A stretch of DNA of 64,000 nucleotides. It comes from Phytohabitans rumicis. Its GTDB lineage: Bacteria; Actinomycetota; Actinomycetes; Mycobacteriales; Micromonosporaceae. Where the stretch lies: the NCBI RefSeq assembly GCF_011764445.1, contig NZ_BLPG01000001.1, positions 8,733,316 to 8,797,315 of the forward strand. The letters are read 5' to 3'. The position numbers were made by a program, and so were the translations under genes. Shown here one piece after another: positions 5,803 through 62,055 of the stretch (the stretch's first letter is position 1; every line of letters begins with the position of its first letter). Below the pieces are notes generated by a model. That model was not told the origin of the DNA. It ran no database searches and saw nothing but the letters and a program-made list of their open reading frames with translations.

Positions 5803-6558
5803 ATGCGTACTGTGGCGGCTGCTCTTGGCGTACTCCTGGTGTTGGTGTCACCGGCGGCGGCGCCCGCCTCGTCCGGCGGCGGATGCGCCCGGCAGGCCCT
5901 GCTCTTCTGCGAGGACTTCGAGCGGCTGCCGGCCGGCGGCGCGGCCAGCCTGCGGTGGGGGATCGACACCAAGCACGGCACGCTGACGGTGGAGCGGCGC
6001 GGCGGCGGCAAGGTGCTGCGCGTGCACACGGAGGGCAACGGGCGGGCGTTCCTGAGGGTGGACGACTTCGCGGCGCCCGGCAACAGCTTCTTCGGGCGGA
6101 TCCGGCTGCGGGTGTCGGCGTTTCCGACCGCGCCGGACTGGGCGCACTACACGCTGGTCGAGGCGACCGGCCAGGGCGCGGAGATCGTGCGCCCGCTCGG
6201 CGGGCAGTACGTGCCGACGCTGGACCGGGCGCTGTGGGGCGTGGGCGGGGACGGCGGCCCGACCGGTGACTGGACCAACTGGCGGGAGTCGGCGCCGTCG
6301 GTGGCCGCCCGCTGGCAGTGCGTCGAGTGGGAGGCGGACGCCTCCGACAACCGGATCTCGGTGTGGATCGACGGGGTGGCCCAGCCCGACCTGACCGTCA
6401 CCACCACCCAGCACGGCGGCAACCCGGTCGACTTCGTGTTCCCGCGCTTCGACACCGTGAAGATCGGCTGGCAGCTCTACCAGGGCAACCCGACGCCCCC
6501 GGCGTACGACGTGCTGCTGGACGACATCGCGCTGGCCACTACCAAGATCGGCTGCTAG
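5803..6558 (+). CDS. Secreted jelly-roll (CIP1/concanavalin-like) protein
   Basis: A 251-residue protein with a Sec signal peptide (hydrophobic residues about 3-20, AAPASS cleavage region). The mature part looks all-beta: paired cysteines near the start (CARQALLFCEDFE), a lectin-like edge strand (FFGRIRLRVSAFP), and WQCVEWEAD and VWIDGV segments, ending in Cys. The pattern recalls the CIP1-like or polysaccharide-lyase-like sandwich proteins secreted by cellulolytic microbes, but no catalytic residues can be assigned. ATG 5803 places the signal peptide at the N terminus. It ends directly against the stop of the convergent DUF305 gene. Confidence 0.7.
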   Translation: MRTVAAALGVLLVLVSPAAAPASSGGGCARQALLFCEDFERLPAGGAASLRWGIDTKHGTLTVERRGGGKVLRVHTEGNGRAFLRVDDFAAPGNSFFGRIRLRVSAFPTAPDWAHYTLVEATGQGAEIVRPLGGQYVPTLDRALWGVGGDGGPTGDWTNWRESAPSVAARWQCVEWEADASDNRISVWIDGVAQPDLTVTTTQHGGNPVDFVFPRFDTVKIGWQLYQGNPTPPAYDVLLDDIALATTKIGC

Positions 6559-7242
6559 CTAGAGCGGGATCTCGCGGAGCCGGTTGATCTCGGCCTGCTG
6601 CTCGGCCGCGATGCCGGTGGCCAGCTCCTGGATCCGCTGGTCGACGCCGACCCGCAGCACGTCGGTGCACATGGTGATGGCGCCCTCGTGGTGGGCGGCC
6701 ATCATGTCCACGAACATCTTGTCGAACGCGTCGCCGGTCAGGCCGGCGAGGCCGCGGATCGCCTCCGGCGGCTGCATGCCCTTCATGGCGCCGTGGTCGT
6801 GGCCGCCCTCGTCGGACTTCTCGCCGAGGCCGCGCTGCTGCAGCCAGGTGCGGAAGAACCGCACCTCGGGGCCCTGGGCGGCGGTGATCCGGTCGGCGAT
6901 CGCGCGGATCTGCGGGTGCTTGGCCCGGGTCGGCGCGAGCGCGGCCATCTCCAGGGCCTGCTGGTGGTGCGGGATCATCATCCGGACGAACCACGTGTCC
7001 AGCGTGTTGTAGCGGGAGCCGTCCGGCGCCTTGACCTGGTCGGACGGCACAGTGGACGCGGACTCGCCGGGCCGGCCCGGCATGATGACCGGGATCGGCG
7101 AACCGGTGGGGGAGGCGGTCGCGGTCGGGCTCGCGGCCGGACGGTCCGGATCGGACGATCGCAGCGCCACGGCGACGATCACGCCGGCCAGCGCGACCGC
7201 CACGGCGGCAGCGATCGTATATCCGCGGCGCGTCACGATCAT
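6559..7242 (-). CDS. DUF305 membrane-anchored protein
   Basis: A 227-residue protein with an N-terminal membrane anchor (residues 10-27) and a Ser/Thr/Pro-rich spacer, followed by an extracytoplasmic DUF305 four-helix domain. Two His/Met motifs typical of the family are present: MMIPHHQQALEMA and MMAAHHEGAITM. Some DUF305 proteins bind copper; a metal-handling role here is inference. It is divergent from the LVIVD protein at 7380 with about 137 bases between. Confidence 0.88.
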   Translation of the reverse strand: MIVTRRGYTIAAAVAVALAGVIVAVALRSSDPDRPAASPTATASPTGSPIPVIMPGRPGESASTVPSDQVKAPDGSRYNTLDTWFVRMMIPHHQQALEMAALAPTRAKHPQIRAIADRITAAQGPEVRFFRTWLQQRGLGEKSDEGGHDHGAMKGMQPPEAIRGLAGLTGDAFDKMFVDMMAAHHEGAITMCTDVLRVGVDQRIQELATGIAAEQQAEINRLREIPL

Positions 7243-11983: not shown

Positions 11984-12297
11984 GTCAGCTCGAACAGGTC
12001 GCGCAGGGCCGAGTCGAGCCGGGCCAGGCTGGCGCCGGTGATCATGCCGAGCCGTTCGGCGCCGGCGGCCGCCGGCAGGCGGCGCATCCGGTTGACCACC
12101 ACGACGCCGGACACCGGGTCGGTCTCGGACAGCGGCACCGCGAACGGTGGCAGGTCCGTGGTGCCCCGCTGCCGGACCACGGGCGCGCAGTACGGCGCGG
12201 CGTTGGGGCGTTCGTTGTGCGTATCGCCGGAGAGCACGACGACCCGGTAGCGCAGGTCGGCCCGGTCGCCGATGGTCCAGACCTCGCCGCGGTTCAC
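11980..12297 (-). CDS. PemK/MazF-like toxin without a visible antitoxin
   Basis: A 105-residue protein with the start of PemK/MazF ribonucleases (MNRGEVWTI, then RYRVVVLSGD) and a late LGMITGASLARLDSAL segment like their last helix. Active members cleave mRNA and are neutralised by a small upstream antitoxin. Here only 20 bases separate it from the GntR gene upstream, so no antitoxin can be encoded there, and none is seen downstream. It may be an orphan, a non-toxic homologue, or paired in trans. Confidence 0.7.
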   Translation of the reverse strand: MNRGEVWTIGDRADLRYRVVVLSGDTHNERPNAAPYCAPVVRQRGTTDLPPFAVPLSETDPVSGVVVVNRMRRLPAAAGAERLGMITGASLARLDSALRDLFELT

Positions 12298-17196: not shown

Positions 17197-18468
17197 ATGT
17201 CGCAGGCGGTACCCGTGTACGACCTCGTCGGAGTCGGCTTCGGCCCGTCGAACCTGGCGCTGGCCATCGCGTTGACCGAGCACAACGCGGTCGCCCGGCA
17301 CAAGACCACCGGTGTGTTCCTGGAGCGGCAGCCGCGGTTCGGCTGGCACCGCGGGATGCTGATCGAGGACGCGACCATGCAGGTGTCGTTCCTCAAGGAC
17401 CTGGTCACGCTGCGCAACCCGACCAGCGAGTTCAGCTTCCTGTGTTACCTGCACGGCAAGGGCCGGCTGATCGACTTCATCAACCACAAGAACCTCTTCC
17501 CGCTGCGCGTGGAGTTCCACGACTACCTGGAGTGGGCCGCGGCCAAGGTGGACGACCTGGTCTTCTACGGCCACGAGGTGGTGGGCGTCGAGCCGGTCGA
17601 CGGGGACCACCTCGACGTGACCGTGCGGAGCAAGGACGGGGTGAGCGTCTACCGCGCCCGCAACCTGGTGCTCGCCACCGGCCTGCGCCCGCACCTGCCG
17701 GACGGGGTGGTGGCGACGGACCGGATCTGGCACAACCGCGACCTGCTCGACCGGGTCACCGGGCTGTCGGACGGGTCGCGCTTCGTCGTGGTCGGGGCCG
17801 GACAGAGCGCCGCGGAGGTCGTCGCGTTCCTGCACGAGCGCTTCCCGCGCGCCGAGGTCTGTGCGGTCTTCTCCCGGTACGGCTACAGCCCGGCCGACGA
17901 CAGCTCGTTCGCCAACCGCATCTTCGACCCGGCCGCGGTGGGCGAGTTCTACGAGGCGCCGCCGGAGGTCAAGCAGTCCCTTGTGGACTACCACGCCAAC
18001 ACCAACTACTCCGTCGTGGACGCCGACCTGATCGACGACCTGTACCGCCGGGTCTACCGCGAGAAGGTGCTCGGCACGTCGCGGCTGCGCATGTTCAACG
18101 TGTCCCGCGTCGAGGACGTCGCGGCGACCCCCGCGGGTGTACGGACCACGGTGCGGTCGCTGGTCACCGGCGCGAGCACCGTGCTGGACGCCGACGCCGT
18201 CGTCTACGCCACCGGCTACCGACCCGCCGACCCCGGCCCGCTGCTGGACTCCTGCGGGTGCCGCCGCGACGAGCAGGGGCGCCTGCGCGTCGGGCGGGAC
18301 TACCGCGTGCTCACCGACCCGGATCTCGGGCCCGGAATCTACCTGCAGGGCGGCACCGAGCACACGCACGGCATCACGTCGTCGCTGCTGTCCAACACCG
18401 CCATCCGGGCCGCCGAGATCCTCCGTTCCATCGTGGACAGCGAAGTCCCGGCACCGCAGTACATCTGA
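17197..18468 (+). CDS. L-ornithine N5-monooxygenase (siderophore)
   Basis: A 423-residue flavoprotein that uses NADPH and O2 to make N5-hydroxy-L-ornithine, the first committed step for hydroxamate siderophores. FAD-binding motif GVGFGPSNLALA is at the N terminus, NADPH motif VVVGAGQSAAEVV is near residue 195, and the family's YATGYRP motif is near residue 342. An IucD-type lysine hydroxylase is possible by family alone, but the downstream NRPS domain with an N5-hydroxyornithine code supports ornithine. It begins an iron-regulated run with the binding protein, NRPS and mbtH. Confidence 0.93.
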   Translation: MSQAVPVYDLVGVGFGPSNLALAIALTEHNAVARHKTTGVFLERQPRFGWHRGMLIEDATMQVSFLKDLVTLRNPTSEFSFLCYLHGKGRLIDFINHKNLFPLRVEFHDYLEWAAAKVDDLVFYGHEVVGVEPVDGDHLDVTVRSKDGVSVYRARNLVLATGLRPHLPDGVVATDRIWHNRDLLDRVTGLSDGSRFVVVGAGQSAAEVVAFLHERFPRAEVCAVFSRYGYSPADDSSFANRIFDPAAVGEFYEAPPEVKQSLVDYHANTNYSVVDADLIDDLYRRVYREKVLGTSRLRMFNVSRVEDVAATPAGVRTTVRSLVTGASTVLDADAVVYATGYRPADPGPLLDSCGCRRDEQGRLRVGRDYRVLTDPDLGPGIYLQGGTEHTHGITSSLLSNTAIRAAEILRSIVDSEVPAPQYI

Positions 18469-18490
18469 GCATTCCCAGGGAGCGAACCCC

Positions 18491-19498
18491 ATGTTGCGAT
18501 CACGCCTGCCCCTGGCCCTGGCCGCCGTGGCGGTCCTGGCCATATCCGCCTGTGGCGGAGGGTCCGATGAGGACACCGCCGGCCCGGCCGCGTCCGCCAC
18601 GGCCGGCGCCTTCCCGGTGACGGTGGCGCACAAGTACGGCACGACCGAGATCAAGTCCGCGCCGACCCGGGTGGTGACCCTCGGCCTCAGCGACCAGGAC
18701 ACCGCGCTGGCCCTCGGCGTCAAGCCGGTCGGCGCCGTGGACTGGTTCAAGGAGCGCCCGTACGGCAAGTGGCCGTGGGCGCAGCCGCTGTGGGGCGGCA
18801 CCGCGCCGGAGATCGTCGGCGAGCGGGACGAGTTCAACTTCGAGAAGATCGCCGCGCTCAAGCCGGACCTCATCATCGCCCAGTACAGCGGCATGACGAA
18901 GGAGAACTACGACACGCTGTCCCAGATCGCGCCGACGGTCGGCCAGCCCAAGGAGTACGGCGACTACCTGGCGCCGTGGCAGGCGATGACCCTGGCGATC
19001 GGCAAGGCGCTCGGCAAGCAGGCGCAGACCGAGGAGCTGATCGCCGGGATCGACAAGAAGTTCGCGGACGTACGGCAGCAGCACCCGGACTGGGCCGGCA
19101 AGACGGTGGCCGTGGTGGACCCGTTCGAGCCCGGCCAGTACGCGGTGTTCTCCTCCACCGACCCGAAGCTGGTGTTCCTGAAGGAGATGGGGTTCACCGT
19201 GCCGGCCGAGATCGACAAGCTGGCCGGCAAGGAGAACGCCACCGTCATCAGCTCCGAGCGGCTCGACCTGATCGACGTGGACCGGCTGCTCTTCCTGACC
19301 AGCGACCCGGGCGCGGAGAAGCGGGTCACCGCCGACAAGGTCTACGCCGGGCTGAAGGTGGCCCAGGAGAAGCGGGCCGTGTTCCTGCCGTACGAGGAGC
19401 CGCCGCTGGGCGGGGCGCTGTCGTTCAACACGGTGCTGAGCATCCCGTACGCCATTGACCAGGTGGTGCCGATCCTCGCCGGGGGCACGGGCAAGTGA
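18491..19498 (+). CDS. Fe-siderophore ABC transporter substrate-binding lipoprotein
   Basis: A 335-residue periplasmic-type binding protein of the FecB/FepB family, anchored by a lipobox (LAISAC, Cys at about residue 20). It would capture the ferric siderophore outside the membrane. Family features include [23 protein letters not shown] and [12 protein letters not shown]. No permease or ATPase gene accompanies it in this window, so it must work with components encoded elsewhere. Its stop overlaps the NRPS start (GTGA), which ties its expression to siderophore synthesis. Confidence 0.93.
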
Positions 19499-22190
19499 CG
19501 GTGGAAGCGAAGACCTGGCCGGACCTGTTCGAGGCGCGGGTACGGCAAGCGCCGGACGCGGTGGCCCTCGTGTTCGAGGACACCACGCTGACGTACGCCG
19601 AGCTGAACGCCCGCGCCAACCGCCTGGCGCACGCCCTGATCGCGCGGGGCGTCGGGCCGGAACGGGTGGTGGGGCTGTCCCTGCCGCGATCGGTGGACAT
19701 GATCGTCGCCGAGGTGGCGGTGCTCAAGGCCGGCGGGGCGTACCTGCCGCTCGACCCGGACTACCCGGACGAGCGGATCGCCTACATGGTGGCCGACGCC
19801 GCCCCGGTCTGCGTGCTGGACAGCGTGCCGGACGTGTCCGGCTACCCGGACACCGACCCGGCCAGGTCGTCGCGCGTCACCAACGCCGCGTACGTCATCT
19901 ACACCTCCGGCTCGACCGGGCGTCCCAAGGGCGTGGTGCTCTCCCACACCGGCGTGGCCAAGCTGCTCGCCACCCAGGTCGAGCGGCTCGGCGTGGGGCC
20001 GCACAGCCGGGTGCTGCAGTTCGCGTCGCCGAGCTTCGACGTCGCGTTCTGGGACCTGTGCCTCGGCCTGCTGTCCGGCGGGCGGCTCATCGTCGTACCG
20101 GCGGAGCGGCGGGTGCCGGGCGCGGCGCTGACCGACTACATCCACCGGCACGGCGCCGATTTCCTGATCCTGCCGCCGGCGTTGCTCGCCGCGCTGCCCG
20201 CGGACTGCGTGCTGCCGGAGGGCGCCACGCTGCTCGCCGGCACCGAACGGGTGGCGCCGGAACTGGTGGCCCGGCACGCCCGCGGGCGCCGGATGTTCAA
20301 CGCGTACGGGCCGACCGAGGCGACCGTCAACTCGACGCTCGGCTTCTGCGATCCCGACGCCAGCGGCTCGTCCGTCCCCATTGGAGTCCCCGACCCGGGC
20401 ACCACCGCGTACGTCCTGGACGATTCCCTGCGGCCCGCCGCCGAAGGGGAGCTGTACCTGGGCGGCGCCGGGCTGGCCCGCGGCTACCTGGGCCGGCCCG
20501 GCCTGACCGCGGAGCGCTTCGTCGCGTCGCCGTTCGAGCCCGGGCAGCGGCTCTACCGCACCGGCGACGTGGTGCGCCGGCTCGACGACGGGCGCCTCGA
20601 CTTCGTCGGGCGGGCCGACGACCAGGTGAAGATCCGCGGCTACCGGGTGGAGCCCGGCGAGGTCGAGGCCGTCCTCGGTGGATACCCGTCGGTCGCGCAG
20701 GTCGCCGTGGTGGCCCGGGAGGGGCGCCTGGTGGCGTACGCGGTCCCGGCGGCGGGCAGCACGGCCGACCCGGACGCTCAGGTCCAGGGCTGGAAGGACG
20801 CCCACGACGCGCTCTTCCAGGTGGCCGAGGACAACCCGTTCATCGGGTGGAACAGCAGCTACGACGGCGAGCCCATCCCGCTCGACGAGATGCGCGCCTG
20901 GCTGGACGCCACCGTCGACAGCGTACTGGCGCTGCGCCCGCGCCGGGTGCTGGAGATCGGTGTCGGCAGTGGAATGATCCTGTCCCGGGTCGCCCCGCAG
21001 GTCGAGGCGTACTGGGGATCGACCTGTCCGAGGAGGGCATCCGGTCGCTGCGTGCCCGGGTCGCCGCCGACCCCACGCTTGCCGGCAAGGTCGAGCTGCG
21101 CTGCCAGCCGGCCGGCGACCTGTCCGGGCTGCCGTCCTTCGACACCGTCGTCATCAACTCGGTGACGCAGTACTTCCCGACCGCCGAGTACCTCCGTGGC
21201 GTACTCGCGTCGGCGGCCGATCTGGTCGGGCCCGGCGGCAGGGTGTTCGTCGGCGACGTGCGCAACCTGCGGCTGCTGCGCCACATGCGCGTGGACATCG
21301 CCGCCCAGCGCGCGGGCACGGCCGACCCCGCCGCGGTCGACCGGGCCATCGCGTGGGAGCGCGAACTGGTGCTCGACCCGGACTTCTTCACCGGCGTGCC
21401 CGGTTTCGTGGCTGATCTGCGGGTCAAGCGCGGGCGCTACCACAACGAGCTGAGCCGCTACCGGTACGACGTGGTGCTCCGCCGCGGGCCGGCGTCCACA
21501 TCGGACGCACCGGTGGTGCCGTGGGAGGGCCTCCCGGCGTACCTGCGGGAGCGGCGGCCGTCGCGCGTGCGGGTGACCGGGCTGCCCAACGCCCGCCTGA
21601 GCACGGCCGGCGTGCACCCGGACGACCTCCACGAGCTCGGCGAGTCGCTGGGATACGACGCCGCCGTCACCTGGTCGGGCGACGGCGACCGCGGCGAGCT
21701 GGACGCGGTGTTCGCCCTGCCGGGGGAGGACCCGGGCCAGGTCTACCGGCCCGGCCGGCCGGGCCGGGAACGGCACAACGTCCCGGCCGCGTTCCAGGAC
21801 GTCAACGCGCTGACCCGGGCGCTGCGCGGGTACGCCCGGGAGCGGCTGCCCGAGTACATGGTGCCGGCCGCCTTCGTGCCGCTGCACGAGCTGCCGGTGG
21901 CGCCGAGCGGCAAGCTGGACCGCAAGGCGCTGCCCGCACCGGACTTCGCCGCGCTCGTCACCGGCCACCGGCCGCGCACCCCACGCGAGGCCGTGCTGTG
22001 CCGCATCTACGCCGACGTGCTCGACCTGCCCGGCGTGGGCGTCGACGACGACTTCTTCGCGCTCGGCGGCGACAGCATCGTCGCGATCGGCCTGCTCGTC
22101 CAGGCCCGCAAGGCCGGGCTCGCCCTGTCGCTGCGGGACATGTTCCGGCATCGCACCGCGGCCGCGCTCGCGGCGGTCGCCGGCACCGTG
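19495..22190 (+). other. NRPS module 1: A1 interrupted by N-methyltransferase, T1
   Basis: A1 opens the protein with no condensation domain, so it is the loading module. The core motif [10 protein letters not shown] is at 19891-19920. The pocket residues read by eye are D-V-W-I-L-A-A-V-N-K, a code I cannot assign. The methyltransferase (about 20790-21480) is inserted between motifs A8 and A9; it has [15 protein letters not shown] and the SAM motif [11 protein letters not shown]10 (SGKLDRKAL) is at about 21907-21933. The carrier Ser codon in GGDSIVAI is 22074-22076. The product would be an N-methylated starter. Confidence 0.85.
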
Positions 22191-25100
22191 GCTGACCGTG
22201 CGGACAGTCAGCAGCCGGTCGAGCTGGAGCCGCTGCCCGACGAGCGCTGGGCGGCCGAGGTGCTGCCACTGACGCCGCTGCAGGAGGGCTTCTACTTCCA
22301 CGCGTACGCCGACGGCGACGCCGGCGGGTACGCCATCCAGCTCGCCGTCGCGCTGACCGGGCCGCTGGACGCCGCCGCCCTGCGCGGGGCCGCCCAGGGG
22401 CTCCTCGACCGGCACGCCGCGCTGCGGGCCGGCTTCCGGCAGCGCCCCGACGGCCGGGTGGTCCAGCTCGTGGCCGACCGGGTCGAGCTGCCGTGGCGGG
22501 ACGTCGACCTGTCCGGCGTGCTCGCCGTCGCCGAGCGGGCCGCCCACGCCGCCGGTGCGACGGGTGACGAGGCCCAGGCGGCCGTCGACGCCGTCGTCGA
22601 GCAGGCCCTGCGCGCGGTCGCCGAGGAGGAGCGGGACCGCCCGTTCGACCTGGCCCGGCCGCCGCTGCTGCGGGCCACGCTGGTGCGGCGCGACCGTGAA
22701 CGGCACGACCTGCTGATCGGGTTTCACCACATCGTCGCGGACGGGTGGTCGGTCTCCGTCCTGCTGCGCGAGCTGATGGCCAGCTACGGCGGCGCCGAGC
22801 TGCCGGCCGCCACCCCGTACCGGGACTATCTGGCGTGGCTGGGCGGCCGCGACCGGGCGGCGGCGACCGCGGCGTGGCGGTCCACCCTGGACGGCCTCGA
22901 CGAGCCCACCCGCCTGGTCGCGGACGGGCCCCCGGCGGCGCCGCGGCACGGGGAGGTCCGCGTCGCGCTTCCCGAGGAGGTCACCGCCGGCCTCGCCGCC
23001 CGCGCCCGCGAGCGCGGCCTGACCCTGGGTACGGTCGTGCAGGGCGCCTGGGGCCTGCTGCTGGGCCGCCTGCTCGGCCGCACCGACGTCGTCTTCGGCA
23101 CCACCGTCTCCGGCCGGGCGTCCGATGTGGACGGTGTCGGGTCGCTCGTCGGGCTGCTCATCAACACGCTGCCGGTACGGATGCGGTGGCGGCCCGGCCA
23201 GTCCCTCGCCGGCGCGCTCGGCGCCCTGCAGGCGGAGCGCGCCGCGCTGCTCGACCACCAGCACACCGGGCTGGCCGAGCTGCAGCGGATGGCCGGGCTG
23301 GGCGAGCTGTTCGACACCATCGTGGTGCTGGAGAACTACCCGGTCGACGGCGACCTCGCCGATCCGGCGGGGACGCTGCGCGCCGGGGTCCCGGACTACG
23401 TGGACACCGGGCACTACCCCTGGCGCTCATCGTGCTCCCGGGGGACCGGCTGGAGCTGCGGCTCAAGCACGACGCCACCCGGCTCGACGGCCCGGCCGTA
23501 CGGCGGATCGCGGACCGGCTCGCCCGCCTGCTCGCCGCGGTCGCCGCCGACCCGGACCGCCCGGTGGCGCGGGTCGACCTGCTGGAGCCGGCCGAGCGGG
23601 CCCCGCTCGCCGGCGCGGTGCGCGAGCTGCCGGCCACCACGCTGGTGGCCGACTTCGAGGCGCAGGCCACTTTCCGTCCACACGCGACCGCCCTGATCGC
23701 GGGCGACGAGCGGGTGTCCTATGCGGACCTCGACGCCCGCGCGTCCGCGCTGGCCGCCCGCCTGCGCGCCCAGGGCGCCGGCCCGGGCCAGATCGTAGCC
23801 GTCTCCATCCCCCGCTCCGTAGACCTCATCATCGCCCTCCTAGCCGTCCTAAAAACCGGCGCCGCCTACCTCCCCGTAGACCCCTCCTACCCCCGCGCTC
23901 GCCGCGCTTACATGCTCGCGGACTCGGGTGCCCTGGGGCCGATCTTGGACTTGTCAGGTTCCATACCCGGACAACTGGGCATGACAACTCCAAGATCGAC
24001 GGCTGCGGCCAGCGACGCGGCGTATCTGCTGTACACGTCGGGGTCTACGGGGGAGCCGAAGGGGGTGCTTGTTACGCACGCCGCGATCGGTAACCAGTTG
24101 GCGTGGGCTCGGGAACACTTCCGGCTCGGGGCGGACGATCGGGTCCTGCATCAGTTGTCTACCAGCTTCGACCCGTCGATCCTGGAGATCTTCTGGCCGT
24201 TGGGGGCGGGCGCCACCGTGGTGCTCGCCGGGGCGGAGGGGCATCGGGATCCGCGCGAGGTCGCCCGGCTCGTCCGGGAGCACGGGGTCACCACGGTGTT
24301 GACGGTGTCCTCGATGCTGGGGCCGCTCGCCGAGGCCGATCCGGGCGCGTTCGCCGGCGTCCGGCGGGTGCTCGCCGGCGGCGACGCGCTCAGCGCCGAG
24401 TCGGCCGAGCGGTGGCGCGCCGCGACCGGCGTACCGCTGCACAACGTCTACGGCCCCACCGAGGCGGCCGTCCAGGTGACCTCCTGGGCGTACGAGGGCG
24501 GCGGCACGGTCCCCATCGGACGTCCGGTGTGGAACACCCGGCTCTACGTCCTCGACCCGTTCCTGCAGCCGGCGACGACCGGCGAGCTGTACATCGCCGG
24601 CGCCCAGCTGGCCCGCGGCTACCACGGCCGGCCGGGCCTGACCGCGTCGCGGTTCGTCGCCGATCCGTTCGCGCCGGGGCGCATGTACCGCACCGGTGAC
24701 CTCGTGCGCCGCCGCGCCGATGGGGCGCTGGAGTACCTCGGCCGGGCCGACCACCAGGTGAAGATCCGCGGCAACCGGGTCGAGCTGGGCGAGGTCGAGG
24801 CCCGGCTGCGCCGGGAGCCGGGGATCGCCGAGGCGGTGGCCACCGCGGCCGGCCGGCTCGTCGCGTACGTCGTACCCGCACCGGACTCCATAGTGGACCC
24901 CTCCGCGCTGCGCGCCGCCCTGGCCGCGTCGCTGCCGGCGCCGATGGTGCCCGACGCGTTCGTGGTGCTGGACGCGCTGCCGCTGACCCCGAGCGGCAAG
25001 CTGGACCGGGCCGCCCTGCCCGCCCCCGAGGTGGAGCGCGCCCCCGCCCGGGCCCCGCGCGACGCCCGCGAACAGCTGCTGTGCGACATCGTCGGCGGCG

Positions 25101-28100
25101 TCCTGGGCCTCGCCGGCGTCGGCGTCGACGACGACTTCTTCGCGCTCGGCGGCGACAGCATCCTGTCCATCGCGGTGTCCAGCCGGGCCCGCGCCGCCGG
25201 CCTCGAGGTCAGCCCACGCGACGTCTTCGCGCACCGCACGCCGGCCGCGCTCGCCGCGGCCGCCACGGTCGGCACCGCCGCACCGGCCGCCGCGGACGCG
25301 CCGCTGGTCACCCTCACCCCGGAGGAGACCGACCGGGTACGCCGGGCCAGCCCGGTGCCGGTCGCGGACGTGTGGCCGCTGTCCCCGCTGCAGGAGGGGC
25401 TGTACTTCCACGCCAGCTACGACGCCGGGGCGATCGACGTCTACACCGCGCAGGCCGCGTTCGAGTTCACCCGCGGGGTCGACGCCGAACGGCTGCGGGC
25501 CGCCTGTGCCGCGCTGCTGGCCGGCAACCCGAGCGTGCGGGCCGGCTTCACCAGCGACGGCCTGCGGGCACCGGTGCAGTTCATCGGGGCGGCCGTCGAC
25601 GTACCACTGTCCGAAGTGGACCTGTCCGGTCTGCCGGACGCCGAGCGGGACGCCCGCCTCGGCGAGCTGCTGGCCGCCGACCGGACCCGGCGCTTCGACC
25701 TCGCCCACCCGCCGCTGTTCCGGCTGCTGCTGGTACGCCTCGGCGGCGGCCGCGACCGGCTCGTGCTCACCCACCACGTGCTGCTGTGGGACGGCTGGTC
25801 CGCGTCCGTGTTCCTGGAGCAACTGCTGTCCGGGTACGGCGGGGACACCCCGGCCCCGGGCGGGTCGTACCGGGACTACCTGGCGTGGCTGGCCACGCGG
25901 GACGCGGACGAGTCGGCGCGGGCCTGGCGGGACGCGCTCGCCGGGCTGACCGAGCCCACCCTGGTCGGCCCGACCGCTGATCGTGGACTCAGGCCGACGC
26001 TGCCCGAGCGCCGCCGCGTCGAACTGCCCGACGGGGTCAGCGAGCGGCTGCGCGCGGTGGCCCGCGAGCACGGCGTCACCCTCAACACCGTGCTCAACGC
26101 CGCCTGGGCGCTGGTGCTGTCCAACCTGGTCGGCCGGGACGACGTGGTGTTCGGCGTGACGGTGGCGGGGCGTACCGCGCCGATCCCGGACATCGAACGG
26201 GCGATCGGGCTCTTCCTCAACACCGTGCCGGTGCGGGTCGCGCTCGACCCCCGCGAGTCGGTCGGGGACCTGCTGCGCCGGATCCAGGCCGAGCGGACCG
26301 CGCTCATGCCGTACGAGCACGTCGGGCTCGGCGCGATCCAGCGGGAGACCGGGCACACCCAGCTCTTCGACACGCTCTTCGCGCTGCAGAACGTGGGCGG
26401 CGAAGACCAGTTGACGGCGCTGCGCGAGCGGCACGGCGTCGAGCAGGTGGACAGCGTGGACGCCACCCACTTCCCGCTCGCCCTGGTGGTCACGCCGGCC
26501 GAGCGGCTGCGCGTCATGCTCGCGTACCGGCCGGACGTGGTCGAGCCGGCCCGCGCCGCCGCGGTGCTCGACCGCTTCGCCGCGGTGCTGGAGCGGCTCG
26601 GTGCCGCCGGCGGGGACCTGGACGCGCCGGTGGGCCGGCTCGACGTGTTGCCGCACGGCGAGCCGGCCCGCCTGGCGGCCGAGTGGGACGCGACCCGGCA
26701 CCCCGTACCGGACGACACCGTCGCGGACCTGCTGGCCGCCCAGGCGGCCCGTACGCCGGACGACGTGGCGCTGGTCTTCGCCGCTGAGTCCTCCGGGACA
26801 CCCGAACCCGAGGCGGTCACCTACGCCGACCTGGACGCGCGCATCAACCGCCTGGCCCGGCTGCTCATCGCCCGCGGCGCCGGGCCGGAACGGGTGGTGG
26901 CGCTCGCGCTGCCGCGGTCGACCGACATGGTCGTCGCGCTGTTCGCCGTGCTGCGCACCGGCGCCGCGTACCTGCCGCTGGAGCTGGACCACCCGGCCGA
27001 GCGGCTGGCGCTCATGCTGGACGACGCCGCGCCGGTCTGCGTGCTGTCCACAGTGGCCGTCGCGGCGACGTTGCCGGGGGAGTGCGTCGCCCTCGACGAG
27101 CCCGCCGTGGCCGCCGAGCTGGCCGGGCTGGACGGGAGCCCGGTCGGGCGCCGGTTCGACCAGCGGCACCCCGCGTACGTCATCTACACCTCCGGCTCCA
27201 CCGGCCGGCCCAAGGGCGTCGTCACGCCGTACCGCGGGCTCACCAACATGCAGCTCAACCACCGCGAGGCCATCTTCGCCCCGGCGATCGCGGCGGCCGG
27301 CGGGCGCCGGCTGCGCATCGCGCACACCGTGTCGTTCGCGTTCGACATGTCCTGGGAGGAGCTGCTCTGGCTCGTCGAGGGGCACGAGGTGCACGTGTGC
27401 GACGAGGAGCTGCGCCGCGACGCCGAGGCGCTCGTCGCGTACTGCGAGCGGCACCGGATCGACGTCGTCAACGTCACCCCGACGTACGCCCAGCACCTGA
27501 TCGAGGAGGGGCTGCTCGACGGCGCCCACCGCCCGCCCCTCGTGCTGCTCGGCGGCGAGGCGGTCTCCGACGCGGTGTGGAACAGGCTGCGGGACACCGA
27601 CGGCACGTTCGGCTACAACCTGTACGGGCCGACCGAGTACACCATCAACACGCTCGGCGGCGGCACCCACGAGAGCGCCACGCCCACGGTCGGCCGCCCG
27701 ATCTGGAACACCCGGGCGTACATCCTGGACACCTGGCTGCGGCCGGTGCCGGACGGCACCCCCGGGGAGCTGTACATCAGCGGCGCCGGGCTGGCCCGCG
27801 GCTACCTCAACGCGCCCGGACTGAGCGCGGCCCGGTTCGTCGCCGATCCGTCCCTCCCGGGTGGACGGATGTACCGCACCGGCGATCTGGTGCGCCGCCG
27901 CCCCGATGGAAATCTCGACTTTCTCGGCCGCACCGACGACCAGGTCAAGATCCGCGGATACCGGATCGAGCTGGGCGAGATCGAGTCGGTGCTCGGCGCG
28001 CACCCGCGGGTCGCCCAGGCCGCGGTCGTCGCCCGCGACGGGCGCCTGTCCGGGTACGTCGTGCCGGCCACGCCCACGGACGGCGACCGCGCGGAGGCCG

Positions 28101-31100
28101 AGCGCGCGCAGGTCGGTGAGTGGCAACAGATCTACGACGCCGAGTACGCCGAGATCGGCACCGCGGTGTCCAAGGAGGACTTCTCCGGCTGGGACAGCAG
28201 CTACGACGGCCAGCCGATCCCGCTGGACGAGATGCGGGAGTGGCGGGACACCACGGTGGCCCGGATCCGCGAACTGCACCCCGGCGGGTGCTGGAGATCG
28301 GCGTGGGCAGCGGCCTGCTGCTGTCCCGCCTGGCGCCGGACTGCGACGCGTACTGGGGCACCGACCTGGCCCCGTCGGTGATCGAGCAGCTGCGCGCCGA
28401 CGTCGCCGCCGTGCCGGAGCTGGCCGGCCGGGTGGAGCTGCGCTGCCAGCCGGCGGACGACCTCGACGGGCTGCCGCGCGGCTTCTTCGACACGGTCGTC
28501 GTCAACTCGGTCATCCAGTACTTCCCGGGCGCCGACTACCTGACCCGGGTGCTGACCGGCGCCCTGGACCTGGTCGGGCCGGACGGCGCGGTCTTCGTCG
28601 GGGACGTGCGCAACCTGCGCCTCGCCGGGCACTTCCACGCGGCCGTCGCGGCGGCCCGGGCCGGCGGCGACACCCGGCGGGTCGCCGCCCTGGAGAAGGA
28701 ACTGCTGGTCGACCCGGACTACTTCGCCACCCTCGCCCCGGCGGCGGTCCGGGTGCGCCGCGGCCGGGCGCACAACGAGCTGACACGCTACCGCTACGAC
28801 GCCGTGCTCAGGCGCTCGGCCCCCGCGGTCGACGCGGCACCGACCACACTGGACGCCGTCACCGGGCCAGCCGCCCGGGTCACCGGCATCCCCAACGCCC
28901 GCCTGGTGGACGGGGGTGTGGAGCCCGAGGACCTGTACGCGCTCGGCGAGCGGCTCGGCTACCAGGTGCACGTCGCGTGGTCGGCGGCCGACGATGGCAG
29001 CCTCGACGCGTACTTCCTGCGGGACGGCGCGCTGCCGTTCGCGCCGGTACGCCCGGCCGGCCGCCGCCCGCTCACCAACGACCCGGCGGCCGCGCGCGGC
29101 ACCGGCGCGCTGGTGCGGGAACTGCGCGAGCACCTCAAGCGCCACCTGCCGGACTACATGGTGCCGCCGGCGCTGGTCACGCTCGACCGGCTGCCGCTGA
29201 CCGTCAACGGCAAGCTGGACGTGCGGGCGCTCCCGGCCGCCGAGCCGGCCGCCGCGCGGGGGCCGAGCCGGGCGCCGGCCACCCCGCACGAAGAAGTCCT
29301 GTGTGGACTCTTCGCCGAGGTGCTGGGCCTGGACCGGGTCGGCGTCGACGACAACTTCTTCGACCTCGGCGGGCACTCGCTGCTCGCCACCCGCCTGGTC
29401 AGCCGGGCCCGTACGGCGCTGGGCGCCGAGCTGGCCATCCGCGACCTCTTCGAGGCGCCCACCGTGGCGGAGCTGGCCGGTCGGGCCGGCACCAGCGGCA
29501 GCCGCCTGCCGCTGGTCCGCCTGGAGCGGCCGGACGAGATCCCCGCCTCGTACGCCCAGCAGCGCCTGTGGGTGCTCGACCAGCTCGACGGGGCGGCGTC
29601 GGCGGCGTACAACTTCCCGATCGTCATGCGGGTCCGCGGCGACCTCGACGTGGACGCGCTGCGGGCCGCGCTCGGCGACGTGGTCGACCGGCACGAGGCG
29701 CTGCGCACCGTCTTCGCCGAGCGGGACGGCCGGCCGGTCCAGCGGGTCCTGCCCGCCGGCTCGGCGTACCCGATCGTGGACGTCGCCCCGGACGGTGACG
29801 TCGCCGCGGCGGTCCGGCGCCCCTTCGACCTCGCGACCGAGCTGCCGCTGCGCGTCACGGTGGTCCCGGACGGGCCCGGCGAGCACGTGGTGGCGATCCT
29901 GCTGCACCACATCACCACCGACGAGTGGTCGGACGGACCGTTCCTGCGCGACCTTGCCACCGCGTACGCGGCCCGGCGCGCCGGCCACCGTCCGGAGTGG
30001 ACGCCGCTGCCGATGCAGTACGCGGACTTCACGCTGTGGCAGCGGGCGTTGCTGGGCGAGGAGTCCGATCCGGACAGTCTCGCGGCCAAGCAGCTGGACT
30101 TCTGGCGCGGCGCGCTGGCCGGTGTCCCGGAGCGGATCGACCTGCCCACCGACCGGCCGGCGCACGCCGCGGCGGGCGGTGCCGGCGCGGCGCTGAGCAT
30201 CGCGCTGGACCCGGCGGCGGCCCAGGGCCTGCGCCGCCTCGCCCACCAGAGCGGGGCGAGCATGTTCATGCTGGCCCACGCGGCGGTCGCCGCGCTGCTG
30301 CACCGGCTCGGCGCGGGCACCGACATCCCGCTCGGCGCGCCGATCGCGGGCCGGACCGACGAGGCGCTCGACGACCTGGTGGGCTTCTTCGTCAACACGC
30401 TCGTGCTGCGCACCGACCTGACCGGGGACCCGAGCTTCGCGGAGCTGGTCGCCCGGGTGCGCGGGGCCGACCTGGCCGCGTTCTCGCACCAGGACGTGCC
30501 GTTCGAGGCGGTGGTGAAGGCGCTCAACCCGGACCGGTCGCTGGCCAGCAACCCGCTCTTCCAGGTGATGGTGGTGTACCGCAACCGGTCGGCGGCCGAC
30601 TTCGCGCTCGCCGGGCTGGCGGTCACACCGGAGCCGGTGGAGACCGGGACGGCCCGGTTCGACCTGGTGTTCGGGTTCGTCGAGTCCGACGTGGACGGTG
30701 GGCTGAGCGTCCTGCTGGAGTACCGCACCGACCTGTTCGACCGGGACACCGTGGTACGCCTCGGCGAGCGGCTGAACCGGCTCGTCGCCGCGGCCGTCGC
30801 CGACCCTGAGTCGCCGGTCAGCCGGCTGGACGTGCTGGGCGCGGACGAACGGCAGCAGGTGCTGGCCGGCTTCAACGCCACCGACCGGGAGGTGCCGGAG
30901 GAGGCGCTGCCGGCGCTGTTCGCCCGCCAGGTGGCCGCCCGCCCGGACGCGGTGGCCGTGGTCGACGGGGACCGGGAGGTGTCGTACCGGGAGCTGGACG
31001 AGCTGGCCGACCGGGTCGCCGGGCTGCTCGCCCGCCGCGGCGTACGCGCCGAGGACGTGGTCGGGATCGAGATGCCCCGCTCGGTGCGGATGGTCGCGGC

Positions 31101-33885
31101 GGTGCTCGGCACGCTGAAGCTGGGCGCCGCCTACCTGCCGCTGGACACCATGCACCCGGCCGACCGGCTGGCGTACATGGTGGCCGACGCCGGGGCGCGG
31201 GTGGTGCTCCGCGCCGGCGACCTCGCCGATCTGCCGCCGTCCGCACCGCCCACCGTGGACGTCCGGCTCGACCAGGCCGCGTACGTCATCTATACCTCCG
31301 GCTCGACCGGACGGCCCAAGGGCGTCGCCGTCCCGCACGACGGCATCGCCAGCCTGGTCGCCACCGCGGTCGACCGGATGGGGGTGAGCGCCGACAGCCA
31401 CGTGCTGCACTTCGCCTCGGTCGGCTTCGACGTGGCCGTGTTCGAGCTGGCGATGGCGCTGTGCACGGGCGCCCGGCTGGTGCTGGTGCCCGACGAGGCG
31501 CGGGTGCCGGACAAGGTGCTGACCGACCTGCTCGACGAGCAGGGCATCACCCACATGATCCTGCCGCCGTCGCTGGTGTCCGCGCTGCCGCCGGAGTGCC
31601 CGCTGCCGGCGGGCGCGGTGCTGCTGGTCGGCACGGAGACCGTCCCGCCGGACCTGATCGGCCGCTGGGCCGGCCACCTGCGCCTGTTCGCGGCGTACGG
31701 GCTGACCGAGGCGACAGTCAACTCCACGCTGTGGGCGGCCGAGCCCGGCTGGACCGGCGCCGTCCCCATCGGACGCCCGGACCCCAACACCCGCGTGTAC
31801 GTCCTGGACGCCGCCCTGCGCCCGGTGCCGCCCGGCGTGGTGGGGGAGCTGTACGTCGCCGGCCGCGGCCTGGCCCGCGGCTACCTGGGCCAGCCCGGCC
31901 TGACCGCGTCCCGCTTCGTCGCCGACCCGTTCGGGGCGGGGCGGATGTACCGCACCGGTGACCGGGCCCGCTGGCGCGCCGATGGGACGGTGGACTTCCT
32001 CGGCCGGGTCGACGACCAGGTGAAGATCCGCGGTTTCCGGGTCGAGCTCGGCGAGGTCGAGGCCGCCCTGGCGAGCCACCCGGGCGTCGGCCAGGCGGCC
32101 GTCGTGCCGCACCGCACCGGCACGCTCACCCGCCTCGTCGGGTACGCCGTACCGGAGGGCAACCCGGTCGACGGCGCCGAACTGCGCGCGCACGTGGCCG
32201 CCCTCCTGCCGGACTACATGGTCCCCGCGACGGTGCTGGTGCTGGACGGGCCGCTGCCGCTCACCCCGAACGGCAAGCTGAACCGCAAGGCGCTGCCGGC
32301 GCCGGTGTTCGCCGCCACCGGCGCCCGCCCCCGCGACCCGCGCGAGGAGGCGCTCTGCCGCCTGTTCGCCGGGGTCCTCAACGTGCCCGAGGTGGGCGTC
32401 GACGACGACTTCTTCGCGCTCGGCGGGGACAGCATCGTGGCGATCCAGCTGGTCCGCCGGGCCCGCGCGGCCGGGCTGTCCGTCACGCCCCGGGACGTGC
32501 TCCAGCACCGTACGGTGGCGGGCCTCGCGGCGGTGGCCTCCGTGGCCGCCGACGTGGTGTCCGATGTGGACGGCACCGGGACCGTCCCGCTCACCCCGAT
32601 CCTGCGCTGGGTACGCGAGGGCGGCGGCTCGCTCGACGGCTACAACCAGTCGGTGCTGGTCCAGGTGCCGGCCGGGCTGGGCGCCGACCGGCTGGCGGCG
32701 GCGCTGCGCGCCGTAGTGGACCGGCACGACATGCTGCGCGCCCGGCTGGTCGGGGACGCCCTGGAGGTGCCGCCGCCCGGGTCGGTGGCCGTGCCGGTAC
32801 GGCACGTCCGGGTCGACGGCGCGGACCTCCGGGACACCATCGCGGCGCAGGCCCGCGCCGCCCAGGAACGGCTGGACCCCGCGGCCGGCGTGCTCGTGCA
32901 GGCGGTGTGGTTCGACGCCGGCCCGCGCCCGGGGCGCCTGCTGCTGGTCGTGCACCACTACGTCGTGGACTGGGTCTCCTGGGCGATCCTGCTGCCCGAC
33001 CTGGCAGCAGCCTGGCGCGACGGCACCGACCCGGCGCCGGTGCCGACGTCGTTCCGGCGCTGGTCCCGGCTGCTGACCGAGCGCGCGGTCGACCCGGCCC
33101 GGGAGGCCGAACTGCCACTGTGGACCCGGATCCTCGACGGCGGCGACCCGCTGCCCGTGGAGCGCCCGCTCGACCCGTCGCGCGACGTGGCCGCCGCCGC
33201 CCGGCAGCTCACCGTCGACCTGCCCCCGGACGTGACCGCGCCGCTGCTGACCCAGGACGTCGACGAGGTCTTCCTGACCGCGCTGGCGCTCGCCGTCGCG
33301 CGGTGGCGGGGCGACGGTGCCGTACTCGTGGCGCGCGAAGGCCACGGCCGGCAGGAGCACGTGGCCGGCGGCGTCGACCTGTCCCGCACGGTCGGCTGGT
33401 TCACCGGCCTCTACCCGGTGTGCCTCGACCCCGGCCCGGTCGACCTCGCCGAGGCGTTCGCCGGCGGGCCGGCCGCCGGGCAGGCGCTCGCCCGGGTCCG
33501 CGCCCACCTGCGGTCCATCCCGGACCACGGCCTCGGGTACGGCCTGCTGCGCCACCTCAACCCGCGCACCGCGCCGGAGCTTTCGGCGTACGGGGTGCCG
33601 CCGATCGAGTTCAACTACCTCGGCCGGTTCGACCTGCCCGAGGCGACCGACTGGGCGTTCGCCCCCGAGGCCGACGCGCTCGACATCGGCGTGGACCCGG
33701 ACATGCCGCAGCGGTACGTCCTGTCCATCAACGCGCACACCGAGGACCGCCCCGAGGGCCCACGCCTGCGGGCCACCTGGATCTGGCCGTCCGGCGTGCT
33801 GGCCGAGCCGGCCGTGCGGTACGTCGCCGAGACCTGGCTGCGCGCCCTGTCCGGCCTGGTACGACACCTGAAGGAGACCCCGTGA
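19495..33885 (+). CDS. Four-module siderophore NRPS, A-MT-T / C-A-T / C-A-MT-T / C-A-T-E (three frame breaks)
   Basis: A giant peptide synthetase of about 4,797 residues once three single missing bases are restored: after 21017 (TGGGG before ATCGAC), near 23420 (CCCC before TGGCGC) and near 28282 (CCCC before GGCGGG). The total length plus three bases is a multiple of three, and each break falls inside a conserved motif, so one gene is intended. GTG 19495 overlaps the binding-protein stop. It has four adenylation, four carrier and three condensation domains, two N-methyltransferase domains embedded in A domains, and a terminal epimerase. There is no loading C domain and no thioesterase. It probably joins N5-hydroxyornithine-type residues into a peptide siderophore; release must occur in trans. 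Modules are listed separately. Confidence 0.92.
22225..25260 (+). other. NRPS module 2: C2-A2-T2, with a palindrome in A2
   Basis: The condensation motif HHIVADG is encoded at 22725-22745. A2 begins near 23640 and has [10 protein letters not shown] near 24020. Pocket residues read by eye are D-P-L-T-V-A-V-V-Q-K, not a code I recognise. Between motifs A2 and A3 lies an in-frame 63-bp palindromic repeat (23938-24000), and codon use on its two sides differs (see findings). The carrier Ser codon in GGDSILSI is 25157-25159. Confidence 0.83.
23938..24000. repeat. In-frame palindromic element inside NRPS A2
   Basis: This 63-bp element closely matches the intergenic palindrome at 37497-37558 (62 bp). 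The shared left part includes ACTTGTCAGGTTCCAT, and the outer arms GCCGATCTTGG and CCAAGATCGAC pair with few mismatches. It is exactly 21 codons, has no stop, and encodes [20 protein letters not shown] between adenylation motifs A2 and A3, a surface-loop region in this fold. Confidence 0.85.
25310..29490 (+). other. NRPS module 3: C3-A3 with N-methyltransferase-T3, N5-hydroxyornithine code
   Basis: C3 has [11 protein letters not shown]3 (from about 26700) has [10 protein letters not shown] and pocket residues D-M-E-N-L-G-L-I-N-K by eye, matching as I recall the published code for N5-hydroxyornithine in coelichelin synthetase. The N-methyltransferase (about 28110-28830) has [15 protein letters not shown] and [10 protein letters not shown]. 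The frame break near 28282 lies just before that SAM motif. The carrier Ser ([12 protein letters not shown]) is at 29377-29379. Expected unit: alpha-N-methyl-N5-hydroxyornithine. Confidence 0.85.
29500..33860 (+). other. NRPS module 4: C4-A4-T4-E4
   Basis: C4 has HHITTDEWS, where the usual DG is replaced by DE. A4 (about 30880-32280) has [10 protein letters not shown] and pocket residues D-V-F-I-L-V-A-V-N-K by eye, close to A1. The carrier Ser in GGDSIVAIQ is 32431-32433. The final domain is an epimerase: [10 protein letters not shown] (32953 onward), EGHGR, and [15 protein letters not shown] motifs. A terminal epimerase with no following condensation or thioesterase domain is unusual. Confidence 0.85.
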
Positions 33886-35391: not shown

Positions 35392-37488
35392 GTGCGAGGT
35401 ACCCGTTGGCGGGTCGGTCTGGTGGCGGGCGGCGCGGCCGCGCTGCTGGCGGCCGGGGTAATGGTGGCGGTCAGCGCGCAGGCGGCGGCCGGCTGCCGGG
35501 TGACGTACTCGGTGGCGAGCCAGTGGCCGGGCGGGTTCACCGGCAACGTGGCGGTGACCAACCTCGGTGACCCGATCAACGGGTGGAGTCTGGTGTGGAC
35601 GTTCCCGAACGGTCAGGCGGTGACGCAGGCGTGGAACGCGGCCGTCACGTCGTCGGGTAGCCAGGTCACCGCGAGGAACGTGAGCTACAACGCGGCCATC
35701 GCGACGAACGCGACGGTCTCGTTCGGGTTCAACGGCTCGTGGACGGGCTCCAACACCGCGCCGACGTCGTTCGCGCTCAACGGCACGGTCTGCACCGGCA
35801 GCGTGGGTGGGACGGCGTCGCCGACCGTGAGTCCGTCGGCCAGCGTCTCGCCGTCCGTCTCGCCGACCGTCTCGCCCACGACGTCGCCGCAGCCCGGCAA
35901 CGCGATGGCGGCCGTCGCCGCGATGCAGCCCGGCTGGAACCTGGGCAACTCGTTGGACGCGGTGGGCGCCGACGAGACGGCGTGGGGCAACCCGCGGGTG
36001 ACCGCCGCGTTGCTGGACAACGTGCGGGCGCAGGGCTTCAACAGCATCCGGATCCCCGTCACGTGGAGCAACCACCACGGGTCGGCGCCGAACTACACGA
36101 TCGACGCCGCCTGGCTCAACCGGGTCAAGGAGGTCGTCGACTGGGCCATCGCGGACGGCTTCTACGTGATGATCAACATTCACCACGACTCGTGGCAGTG
36201 GATCAACACGATGCCCAGCGACCGCACCAACGTCCTGGCCCGGTACAACGCGCTGTGGACGCAGATCGCCGCCGCGTTCCGCGGCCACTCCTCGCGGCTG
36301 GTGTTCGAGAGCGTGAACGAGCCGCAGTTCACCGGCGCGTCGGACGAGGCACAGTCCATCAGCCTGCTGAACGAGCTGAACACGTCGTTCCGCAGTATCG
36401 TGCGCGCCTCGGGCGGCGGCAACGCGTCCCGGCTGCTGGTCATCCCGACCCTGCACACCTCCGCCGACGCCGCCCGCGTCGACCCGGCGCTGAACTGGTT
36501 CACCGCCACCGGCGACGCCAACCTGATCGCCACCGTGCACTACTACGGGTACTGGCCGTTCAGCGTGAACGTGGCCGGCGGCACCCGCTTCGACGCCACC
36601 GTCCAAAGTGACCTGACCGGCGCGTTCGACCGGGTCTACAACGCGTTCGTCGCCCGCCGCATCCCGGTCATCATCGGCGAGTACGGCCTGCTCGGCTTCG
36701 ACCGGCACACCGGCACCATCGAGCAGGGCGAGAAGCTGAAGTTCTTCGAGTACTTCGGTTACTACGCCCGCAACCGGCAGATCACCACCATGCTGTGGGA
36801 CAACGGCCAGCACCTCGGCCGTACGTCGTTCGCGTGGGCCGACGCGGAGCTGATCGGACAGATCAAGTCCAGCTGGACCACCCGCTCCGGCACCGCCTCA
36901 TCCGACCAGGTGTACGTCTCCCGCACCGCCGCGATCACCAGCAAGTCGCTGACCCTGAACCTGAACGGGCTGAGCTTCCAAGGCTTGCGGCAGGGCACCA
37001 CCGATCTGGCCAACGGCGCCGACTACACCGTGTCCGGCAGCACCCTGACGCTCACCGCCGCCGCGGTCACCCGGCTGGTCGGCAGCCGGGCGTACGGCGT
37101 CAACACCAACATCCAGGCCCGCTTCTCGGCCGGGGTGCCGTGGCGGATCAGCATCATCACCTACGACACCCCGATCCTCGCGGGCGCCACGGGTACGACC
37201 GGCGCGTTCGCCGTACCCGCCCAGTTCCGCGGCGACCAGCTCGCCACCATGGAGGCCAGGTACGCCGACGGCAGCAACGCCGGCCCGCACAACTGGACCT
37301 CGTTCAAGGAGTTCGACGTCACCTTCGCACCCAACTACACCGCCAACACCATCACCCTCAAGCCCGAGTTCTTCGCCGAGGTCAACGAGGGGCAACGCGT
37401 CACGTTGACGTTCCACTTCTGGAGCGGCGCCCAGCTCACCTACTACGTGACGAAGTCGGGCGGCAACGTGACGGGAACGCTCACCTGA
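35392..37488 (+). CDS. Secreted GH5 endoglucanase with CBM2 and X2-like domain
   Basis: A 698-residue cellulase. The signal peptide spans about residues 6-32. A CBM2 (residues 33-134, paired cysteines 35 and 134) and a Ser/Thr/Pro linker precede the GH5 domain (about 170-500). Catalytic residues are Glu310 in VNEPQF (acid/base) and Glu430 in IIGEYG (nucleophile); HHDSWQW is also typical. The C terminus has an X2-like immunoglobulin domain (VSRTAAITSKSLTLNLNG) and a further beta domain, probably CBM46-like. GTG 35392 follows GAGGAG. It and the LPMO at 9007 would act together on cellulose. Confidence 0.93.
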   Translation: MRGTRWRVGLVAGGAAALLAAGVMVAVSAQAAAGCRVTYSVASQWPGGFTGNVAVTNLGDPINGWSLVWTFPNGQAVTQAWNAAVTSSGSQVTARNVSYNAAIATNATVSFGFNGSWTGSNTAPTSFALNGTVCTGSVGGTASPTVSPSASVSPSVSPTVSPTTSPQPGNAMAAVAAMQPGWNLGNSLDAVGADETAWGNPRVTAALLDNVRAQGFNSIRIPVTWSNHHGSAPNYTIDAAWLNRVKEVVDWAIADGFYVMINIHHDSWQWINTMPSDRTNVLARYNALWTQIAAAFRGHSSRLVFESVNEPQFTGASDEAQSISLLNELNTSFRSIVRASGGGNASRLLVIPTLHTSADAARVDPALNWFTATGDANLIATVHYYGYWPFSVNVAGGTRFDATVQSDLTGAFDRVYNAFVARRIPVIIGEYGLLGFDRHTGTIEQGEKLKFFEYFGYYARNRQITTMLWDNGQHLGRTSFAWADAELIGQIKSSWTTRSGTASSDQVYVSRTAAITSKSLTLNLNGLSFQGLRQGTTDLANGADYTVSGSTLTLTAAAVTRLVGSRAYGVNTNIQARFSAGVPWRISIITYDTPILAGATGTTGAFAVPAQFRGDQLATMEARYADGSNAGPHNWTSFKEFDVTFAPNYTANTITLKPEFFAEVNEGQRVTLTFHFWSGAQLTYYVTKSGGNVTGTLT

Positions 37489-37496
37489 GAGCTGCG

Positions 37497-37558
37497 GTCG
37501 ATCTTGAACTTGTCAGGTTCCATTCCGGACATGTGGGCCTGACAAGTTCAAGATCGAC
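37497..37558. repeat. Perfect 20-bp-arm palindrome (GTCGATCTTGAAC family)
   Basis: Arms at 37497-37516 and 37539-37558 are perfect reverse complements around a 22-base loop, starting 9 bases after the cellulase stop. It may act as a terminator. Its sequence matches the element inside the NRPS at 23938-24000, so it belongs to a dispersed family. Confidence 0.85.
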
Positions 37559-37595
37559 GGGGTTGGGCCCGGCCGGGAAGTGAGAGGCTGGGGCA

Positions 37596-38465: not shown

Positions 38466-38549
38466 GCGTCGATCAAGGGCATATGGCCGTGGTTGGATCT
38501 CTTTCCACGACCGTTCGCCCTTGATCGGCGGGAAAGTCCTTGATCGGCG
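38466..38549. repeat. GATCAAGG palindromic element, copy 2
   Basis: An imperfect palindrome with GCGTCGATCAAGGGC on the left and GCCCTTGATCGGCG plus a second CCTTGATCGGCG on the right. It lacks the outer left block and the GC-rich tandem flanks seen at 5503-5755 and 61650-61847. It fills the gap between the DUF427 gene and the deaminase. Confidence 0.75.
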
Positions 38550-61740: not shown

Positions 61741-61742
61741 GG

Positions 61743-62001: not shown

Positions 62002-62055
62002 GGTGATCGTGGTGACCAATTGCCCCTCGGAGGGCAATTGGTCACCACGATCACC
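62002..62055. repeat. Perfect 24-bp-arm palindrome
   Basis: Arms at 62002-62025 and 62032-62055 are perfect reverse complements around CTCGGA. The arms include GTGATCGTGGTGACC and CAATTGCCC. It could form a very stable hairpin, and lies far from any stop codon on either strand (389 bases after the AraC stop). Confidence 0.85.

Follow-up and report, generated by a model that had tools for sequence, protein, structure and literature searches.

The best-known examples of repeats translated into protein come from Rickettsia. The part of PMC10969869 that describes these RPEs presents them as palindromic repeats that lie both between and within genes, some of them read in frame; they are ~150 bp long and comprise ten families that contain an ORF, numerous copies being in frame, and 44 integrations are reported. 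The GTAG/CGTC REPs are described in sections of PMC3733652 as short palindromes that often lie behind genes, with some intragenic copies and some nested in other palindromes. The same source portrays the CGTC families as lacking a dedicated transposase, with a tag that is unpaired at one end and stems of 8 to 9 bp, and it identifies two CGTC families of R. conorii as RPE-6 and RPE-4. In the main text of that paper, four actinobacterial terms have 0 occurrences, and untagged REP-like families in M. tuberculosis are cited. Our literature searches on such repeats, which covered mainly freely available papers, found nothing on the ~66-bp family described here.

A dispersed palindromic repeat family in P. 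rumicis

The window, i.e., the whole 64,000-nucleotide stretch of DNA that we analyzed, is C1:8733316-8797315 of the 10.7-Mb, three-contig genome of Phytohabitans rumicis. The original prediction was that a palindrome inside adenylation domain A2 of an NRPS nearly matches a second palindrome that lies between genes. Both palindromes were found where they had been placed (Table 1). A 19-bp arm of the copy at 37497, with up to 3 mismatches, had four matches in the window (both arms of each copy), compared to none in 100 shuffles, and a BLAST search of the genome with the intergenic copy recovered the NRPS copy with 86% identity (E value, 1.5e-15).

Table 1. Positions of the two palindromic repeats and associated features in the window
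Feature	Position	Strand	Detail
NRPS region	19513..33444	+	Matched by one 5928-aa G002 ORF in four pieces and three frames
Adenylation domain A2 of NRPS	23612..25003	+	Part translated and compared; element is about residues 109-130
Palindromic repeat, NRPS copy	23936..24002	+	57-bp core (23941-23997) plus outer 5 bp per side
CCC run with extra base of NRPS copy	23966..23968	+	From core length and frame comparison
GH5 cellulase with CBM2, CBM_X2, and CBM46 domains	35422..37488	+	Stop codon a few bases 5′ of intergenic copy
Palindromic repeat, intergenic copy	37495..37560	+	56-bp core (37500-37555)

A two-arm pattern matched 26 palindromes genome-wide (control, 0), 25 of which form a ~66-bp repeat family and 1 of which belongs to a sister family. 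The 25 intact copies are on two contigs, with 21 on C1 and 4 on C2; there is also a half copy at C1:2176798. Alignment of the 25 copies gave a 66-column consensus with 24 paired columns and a mean pairwise identity of 83% (range, 71 to 94%). With 24 other intact copies, and with 15 of the 25 wholly between called genes, the palindrome is a dispersed repeat, as had been proposed. When folded as single-stranded DNA and compared with shuffles, the intergenic copy had a z score of -7.2 (0/200 as good) and the NRPS copy had a z score of -2.7 (3/200 as good); the fold of the NRPS copy is weaker because its arms match less well.

No copy of the ~66-bp repeat was found by DNA search in 60 other genomes, including five genus mates. 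Judged by these searches, the repeat family appears, so far as tested, to be peculiar to P. rumicis. Exact searches with the arm consensus gave nine single-match stretches from unrelated organisms in a genome contig database and none in a viral contig database. A single-arm pattern with 2 mismatches had matches in 58 of 61 genomes; since many of these were near the control level, this pattern by itself proves nothing. Rfam models had no matches in the window at the gathering score.

An extra base opens the reading frame of the NRPS copy

Measured from GATC to GATC, the core is 56 bp in all 24 other copies and 57 bp in the NRPS copy, the sole core-length variant among the 25. The prediction that the NRPS copy (23938-24000) has one more base and is in frame without a stop was borne out by the assembly. 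When we applied the NRPS frame to the 24 other copies, every one had TGA at the 14th codon, and three (L134:6001, L136, and L145) had an earlier stop besides. The NRPS frame passes the element because the extra C avoids this TGA. Relative to G002, the net change at the NRPS site is +15 bp, and the frame is thus kept. Two of the 25 copies, the NRPS copy and one at a kinase/regulator junction, lie inside a frame that continues past them; eight further copies overlap a gene end.

The element replaces part of a variable stretch in A2

The A2 orthologue in G002 is 74% identical over its full length, and the A2 stretch of P. rumicis has no stop. Identity is 68% for the orthologue in G001 and 80% and 79% for those in G003 and G004, respectively, over the part 3′ of a one-base frame break; G005 had no orthologue-like A2 match (best, 50%). 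The element is absent from all four orthologous domains (G001 to G004), so these orthologues do not share the residues that it encodes; with the other copies in the genome, this is the opposite of the result that would have counted against the original prediction. G004 (L161) and G003 (L162) have in common a one-base gap in A2 just after motif A3, which is either a shared error or shared decay.

Between ADSGA and the next shared 11-residue stretch there are 24 residues in G002, G003, and G004, 26 in G001, and 29 in P. rumicis, 21 of which are encoded by the element. We concluded that about 16 residues (~48 bp) were replaced rather than 21 added. The stretch holding the element is strongly variable in length among 25 aligned A-domain sequences. 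An AlphaFold2 model of the A2 part had a mean pLDDT of 89.9; in the element region, the mean was 64 for residues 111-120 and 61 for residues 121-130, with values of <50 for residues 118-123, and the low-confidence loop lies between strands 108-111 and 136-142. The element is therein predicted to encode a flexible 21-residue loop, and the NRPS is predicted to be read through. Of the earlier proposal of a 21-codon loop insertion, the loop agrees with the model, and the plain gain of 21 residues does not hold, as the orthologues carry some 16 residues of their own at that place.

The 5928-aa ORF of G002 matched the window in four collinear pieces, with frame breaks near 21.0, 23.4, and 28.28 kb and one-base gaps in the alignments at all three. 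The piece over 23417-28282 crosses the element in one frame, unbroken, at 77% identity; this match of a single ORF across the site argues against the suggestion that the element is a domain-swap scar. From the alignments, the three frame breaks could be either sequencing error or decay, and the function of the NRPS is accordingly uncertain. Just 5′ of the NRPS, window positions 17500-19400 had matches to an ornithine/lysine N-monooxygenase and a periplasmic binding protein, neighbors that suggest a siderophore cluster.

Copies cluster at the 3′ ends of genes

We classified copies by gene setting using a home-made gene caller; the NRPS copy, which was mis-assigned, and one sister-family copy were excluded from these counts. 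Of the remaining 24, 12 were in convergent settings, 11 were codirectional, 1 was inside a gene, and none was divergent, compared with 47 divergent spacers among the 185 of ≥60 bp in the same loci. Ten of the 25 copies, including the NRPS copy, overlap or lie within a gene. For 14 of the 15 wholly intergenic copies, a stop codon lies within 22 bp (the remaining one is at 40 bp), compared with 7% expected under random placement by length (P = 2e-15) or 29% by spacer (P = 3e-7), the 22-bp limit having been picked after the distances had been seen. Direct reading of gene ends inside the element gave RRS* at L128, L134, and L140, and also ILDLSGAIPDIPA* (L140) and ILELSGAIPDNSA* (L143); the other gene ends inside elements were inferred from the same distances. 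A second read-through occurs at C1:8107814, where a histidine kinase gene is followed, without a change of frame, by the copy and then by the gene for its response regulator. The relatives examined have the kinase and regulator as separate genes, and in those whose junction was read through, the kinase stop and regulator start overlap or are close; in P. rumicis, one frame spans both via the element.

Comparison with relatives

Seven of the 25 sites were compared with relatives. The element itself was not seen in relatives at any of the seven, and none of these was a clean empty site; relatives carry other DNA there. For the pair of copies at C1:5360338 and C1:5361370, homology stops at the start of the first element, at P. 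rumicis locus position 6000-6001 for four relatives and 5990 for G001. It resumes at 7119-7124 for four relatives and at 7217 for G001; the end of the second element is at 7094. The tail of the left gene is replaced by RRS*. These two oppositely oriented copies bracket a ~1-kb gene (L134:6172-7026; ~284 aa) with a weak, endonuclease-like match to REase_MTES_1575, and the spacer at this site differs among relatives, from 48 bp in G004 to 3.2 kb. At C1:8669774, the element in P. rumicis is directly flanked by two genes that are 4.2 kb apart in G004 and 5.5 kb apart in G003. At C1:3308146, homology breaks at 5715 and 6090 (6078 for G001), with the element at 6001-6066 and more DNA in P. rumicis than in relatives. 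At C1:3314227, homology breaks at 12068-12076 in four relatives, just before the element at 12080-12145. None of the examined stretches of G002, G003, and G004 contained the neighborhood of the 37.5-kb copy, and the presumed syntenic place of the C1:8564444 copy in relatives gave no match. A different repeat of ~140 to 270 bp (L130:5718-5990), with at least 11 other matches in the P. rumicis genome, directly adjoins one palindrome copy.

Comparison with known mobile repeats

Integron attC sites have the end motifs RYYYAAC and GTTRRRY. Within 20 bp, these occurred in 0 and 1 of the 25 copies, and we rejected an attC site. The search for a mobilizing enzyme covered one transposase family, Y1_Tnp (RAYT-type; PF01797), which had no matches in the P. 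rumicis genome at an E value of 0.01 and did have matches in 6 of 14 control genomes. On this absence we rejected a RAYT as the mobilizer; it also sets the family apart from REP/REPIN systems with a RAYT. No target-site duplication was detected among the 25 copies; whatever the offset or length, the excess over chance pairing was at most 2.7 copies. Like MITEs, the repeats are short and multicopy with inverted ends; unlike MITEs, they have no target duplication, and no parent insertion sequence was identified within the one transposase family sought.

Compared by description, the P. rumicis palindromes resemble Rickettsia RPEs in lying between and within genes, some in frame; unlike RPEs, they are ~66 bp rather than ~150 bp, and a TGA blocks the NRPS frame in all but one of the 25 copies. 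They resemble GTAG/CGTC REPs in being short palindromes behind or inside genes, with nesting in other palindromes in some cases and with no transposase found by the Y1_Tnp search. An outer CGTC is present at 13 of the 25 left ends, where it is paired within the 24-column helix (90% of cells paired). In contrast, the tag of the CGTC REPs is unpaired and their stem is 8 to 9 bp, so we rejected membership in that group. The comparison with RPEs, and with CGTC REPs, is valid as a likeness, although the unpaired tag and short stem of the CGTC REPs are not shared.

Related palindromes across the taxonomic family

A looser palindrome pattern, which recovered 16 of the P. rumicis copies, was applied to 200 genomes of the taxonomic family. 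It matched 64 of them, spread over 17 of 44 genera, with as many as 109 matches in one genome and a control count of 0 throughout; the five genus mates gave no match. Among the matches listed, arm sequences differ between genomes. We examined the first 20 listed copies in each of two genomes, G091 (of 64) and G130 (of 84). In G091, a stop codon lay within 59 bp of 18 of these 20 copies, and 2 were in divergent spacers. In G130, 1 of the 20 was divergent, and 12 long-form copies were mostly farther from stops. The copies of the long form (L295-L310), a palindromic unit of ~175 bp, are as much as 98% identical to one another. The unit sits centrally between the arms of other, locus-specific GATC palindromes, i.e., palindromes within palindromes. 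Flank pairing for 9 of the 12 long-form copies (L305, L310, and L311 were left out) was significant (P = 0.004), with 4 of the 9 above the 95th percentile of mismatched pairs. Insertion into pre-existing hairpins is supported for this ~175-bp unit. We rejected the same scenario for the ~66-bp family of P. rumicis, for which outer stems were not supported (P = 0.36, ungapped; P = 0.41, gapped).

It is conceivable, though we put it forward only tentatively, that a GATC-anchored palindrome superfamily, with a different variant in each lineage and a non-RAYT mode of spread, colonizes gene 3′ ends across the taxonomic family and seeds C-terminal tails and interior loops, including those of NRPS domains, with single-base slips making truncating copies readable. 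The 64 genomes with the looser pattern are material for finding the spreader, and the family-wide pattern is a basis for testing whether such repeats remodel the loops and C-termini of biosynthetic enzymes.

Explanations for the repeat and its position in the NRPS

The element at 23938-24000 is probably a copy of a non-autonomous REP/MITE-like repeat that is tolerated where genes end and, in one case, in an NRPS loop. The repeats would be non-autonomous mobile DNA spread by an enzyme, and selection would have removed copies from promoters and gene bodies, leaving those behind genes or in last codons; the 3′ bias may thus reflect selection. At the NRPS, a copy would have displaced about 48 bp of the variable region that separates motifs A2 and A3, and the extra base inside it would carry the frame past TGA, resulting in read-through. 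The palindrome had been described as mobile-looking; its copy number and its absence from relatives suggest mobility, set against which are the missing Y1 transposase and target duplication, the lack of a clean empty site at the seven sites compared, and the fact that no movement was seen. The mean difference of 17% between copies does not support a recent burst. In the NRPS, the element is most likely a tolerated passenger, no function having been seen. At this locus a repeat lies inside an adenylation domain, and comparison with its 24 sister copies reveals how the reading frame came to be open.

The repeats could instead be mainly bidirectional transcription terminators or mRNA 3′-end hairpins under selection, the NRPS copy being a stray. 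The placement of copies just 3′ of stop codons, their absence from divergent spacers, and the strong fold of the intergenic copy all fit this explanation, as do locus-specific outer stems in G091 by an ungapped test (P = 0.006). However, the gapped test in G091 gave a P value of 0.16, the outer stems of the P. rumicis copies were unsupported, two copies are internal to reading frames, and the arms of the 25 copies showed no covariation beyond shuffles (90.0% of cells paired versus 90.2%), which favors sequence recognition, or shared ancestry, over a role as an RNA hairpin. We therefore consider a primary terminator function unlikely; a putative terminator effect as a side effect of the repeats is possible. 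Rather improbable, in our judgment, is that an assembly error produced the extra C, or that the NRPS is decaying, such that the gene is not read through. The three other single-base frame breaks relative to G002 and the lack of the extra base in all other copies are what such an account would draw on, but a chance error in a 57-bp core would be unlikely to restore the frame exactly, as the +15 bp relative to G002 does, and the A2 stretch has remained free of stops while 74% identical to its orthologue. Copies might also mark deletion or recombination junctions at which neighboring or intervening DNA was lost, the repeat being the scar. About 48 bp is indeed missing at the NRPS site, and the genes at C1:8669774 are adjacent to the element in P. 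rumicis and kilobases apart in G003 and G004. Yet the relatives' own spacers vary so much at one site (the 48 bp to 3.2 kb described above) that loss in P. rumicis is indistinguishable from gain in the relatives, and at C1:3308146 the P. rumicis genome is longer, not shorter; we regard this explanation as very doubtful.

Other palindromes in the window and genome

The window contains further palindromes with GATCAAGG arms at 5568-5674, 38467-38530, and 61742-61846; the one at 38467 begins 14 bp 3′ of the stop of a DUF427 gene. In the same stretch as the last of these are two GATC palindromes of other sequence, at 62002-62055 and 62121-62177, one with 24-bp perfect arms and the other with TGATCATGAAGTT arms. 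Elsewhere in the genome, members of the sister family, with CGATCTAGGA arms, occur at L149, L150, L151, L153, L154, and L155. An arm of the GATCATGAAGTT type adjoins the sister-family palindrome in four of these (L150, L151, L153, and L154).
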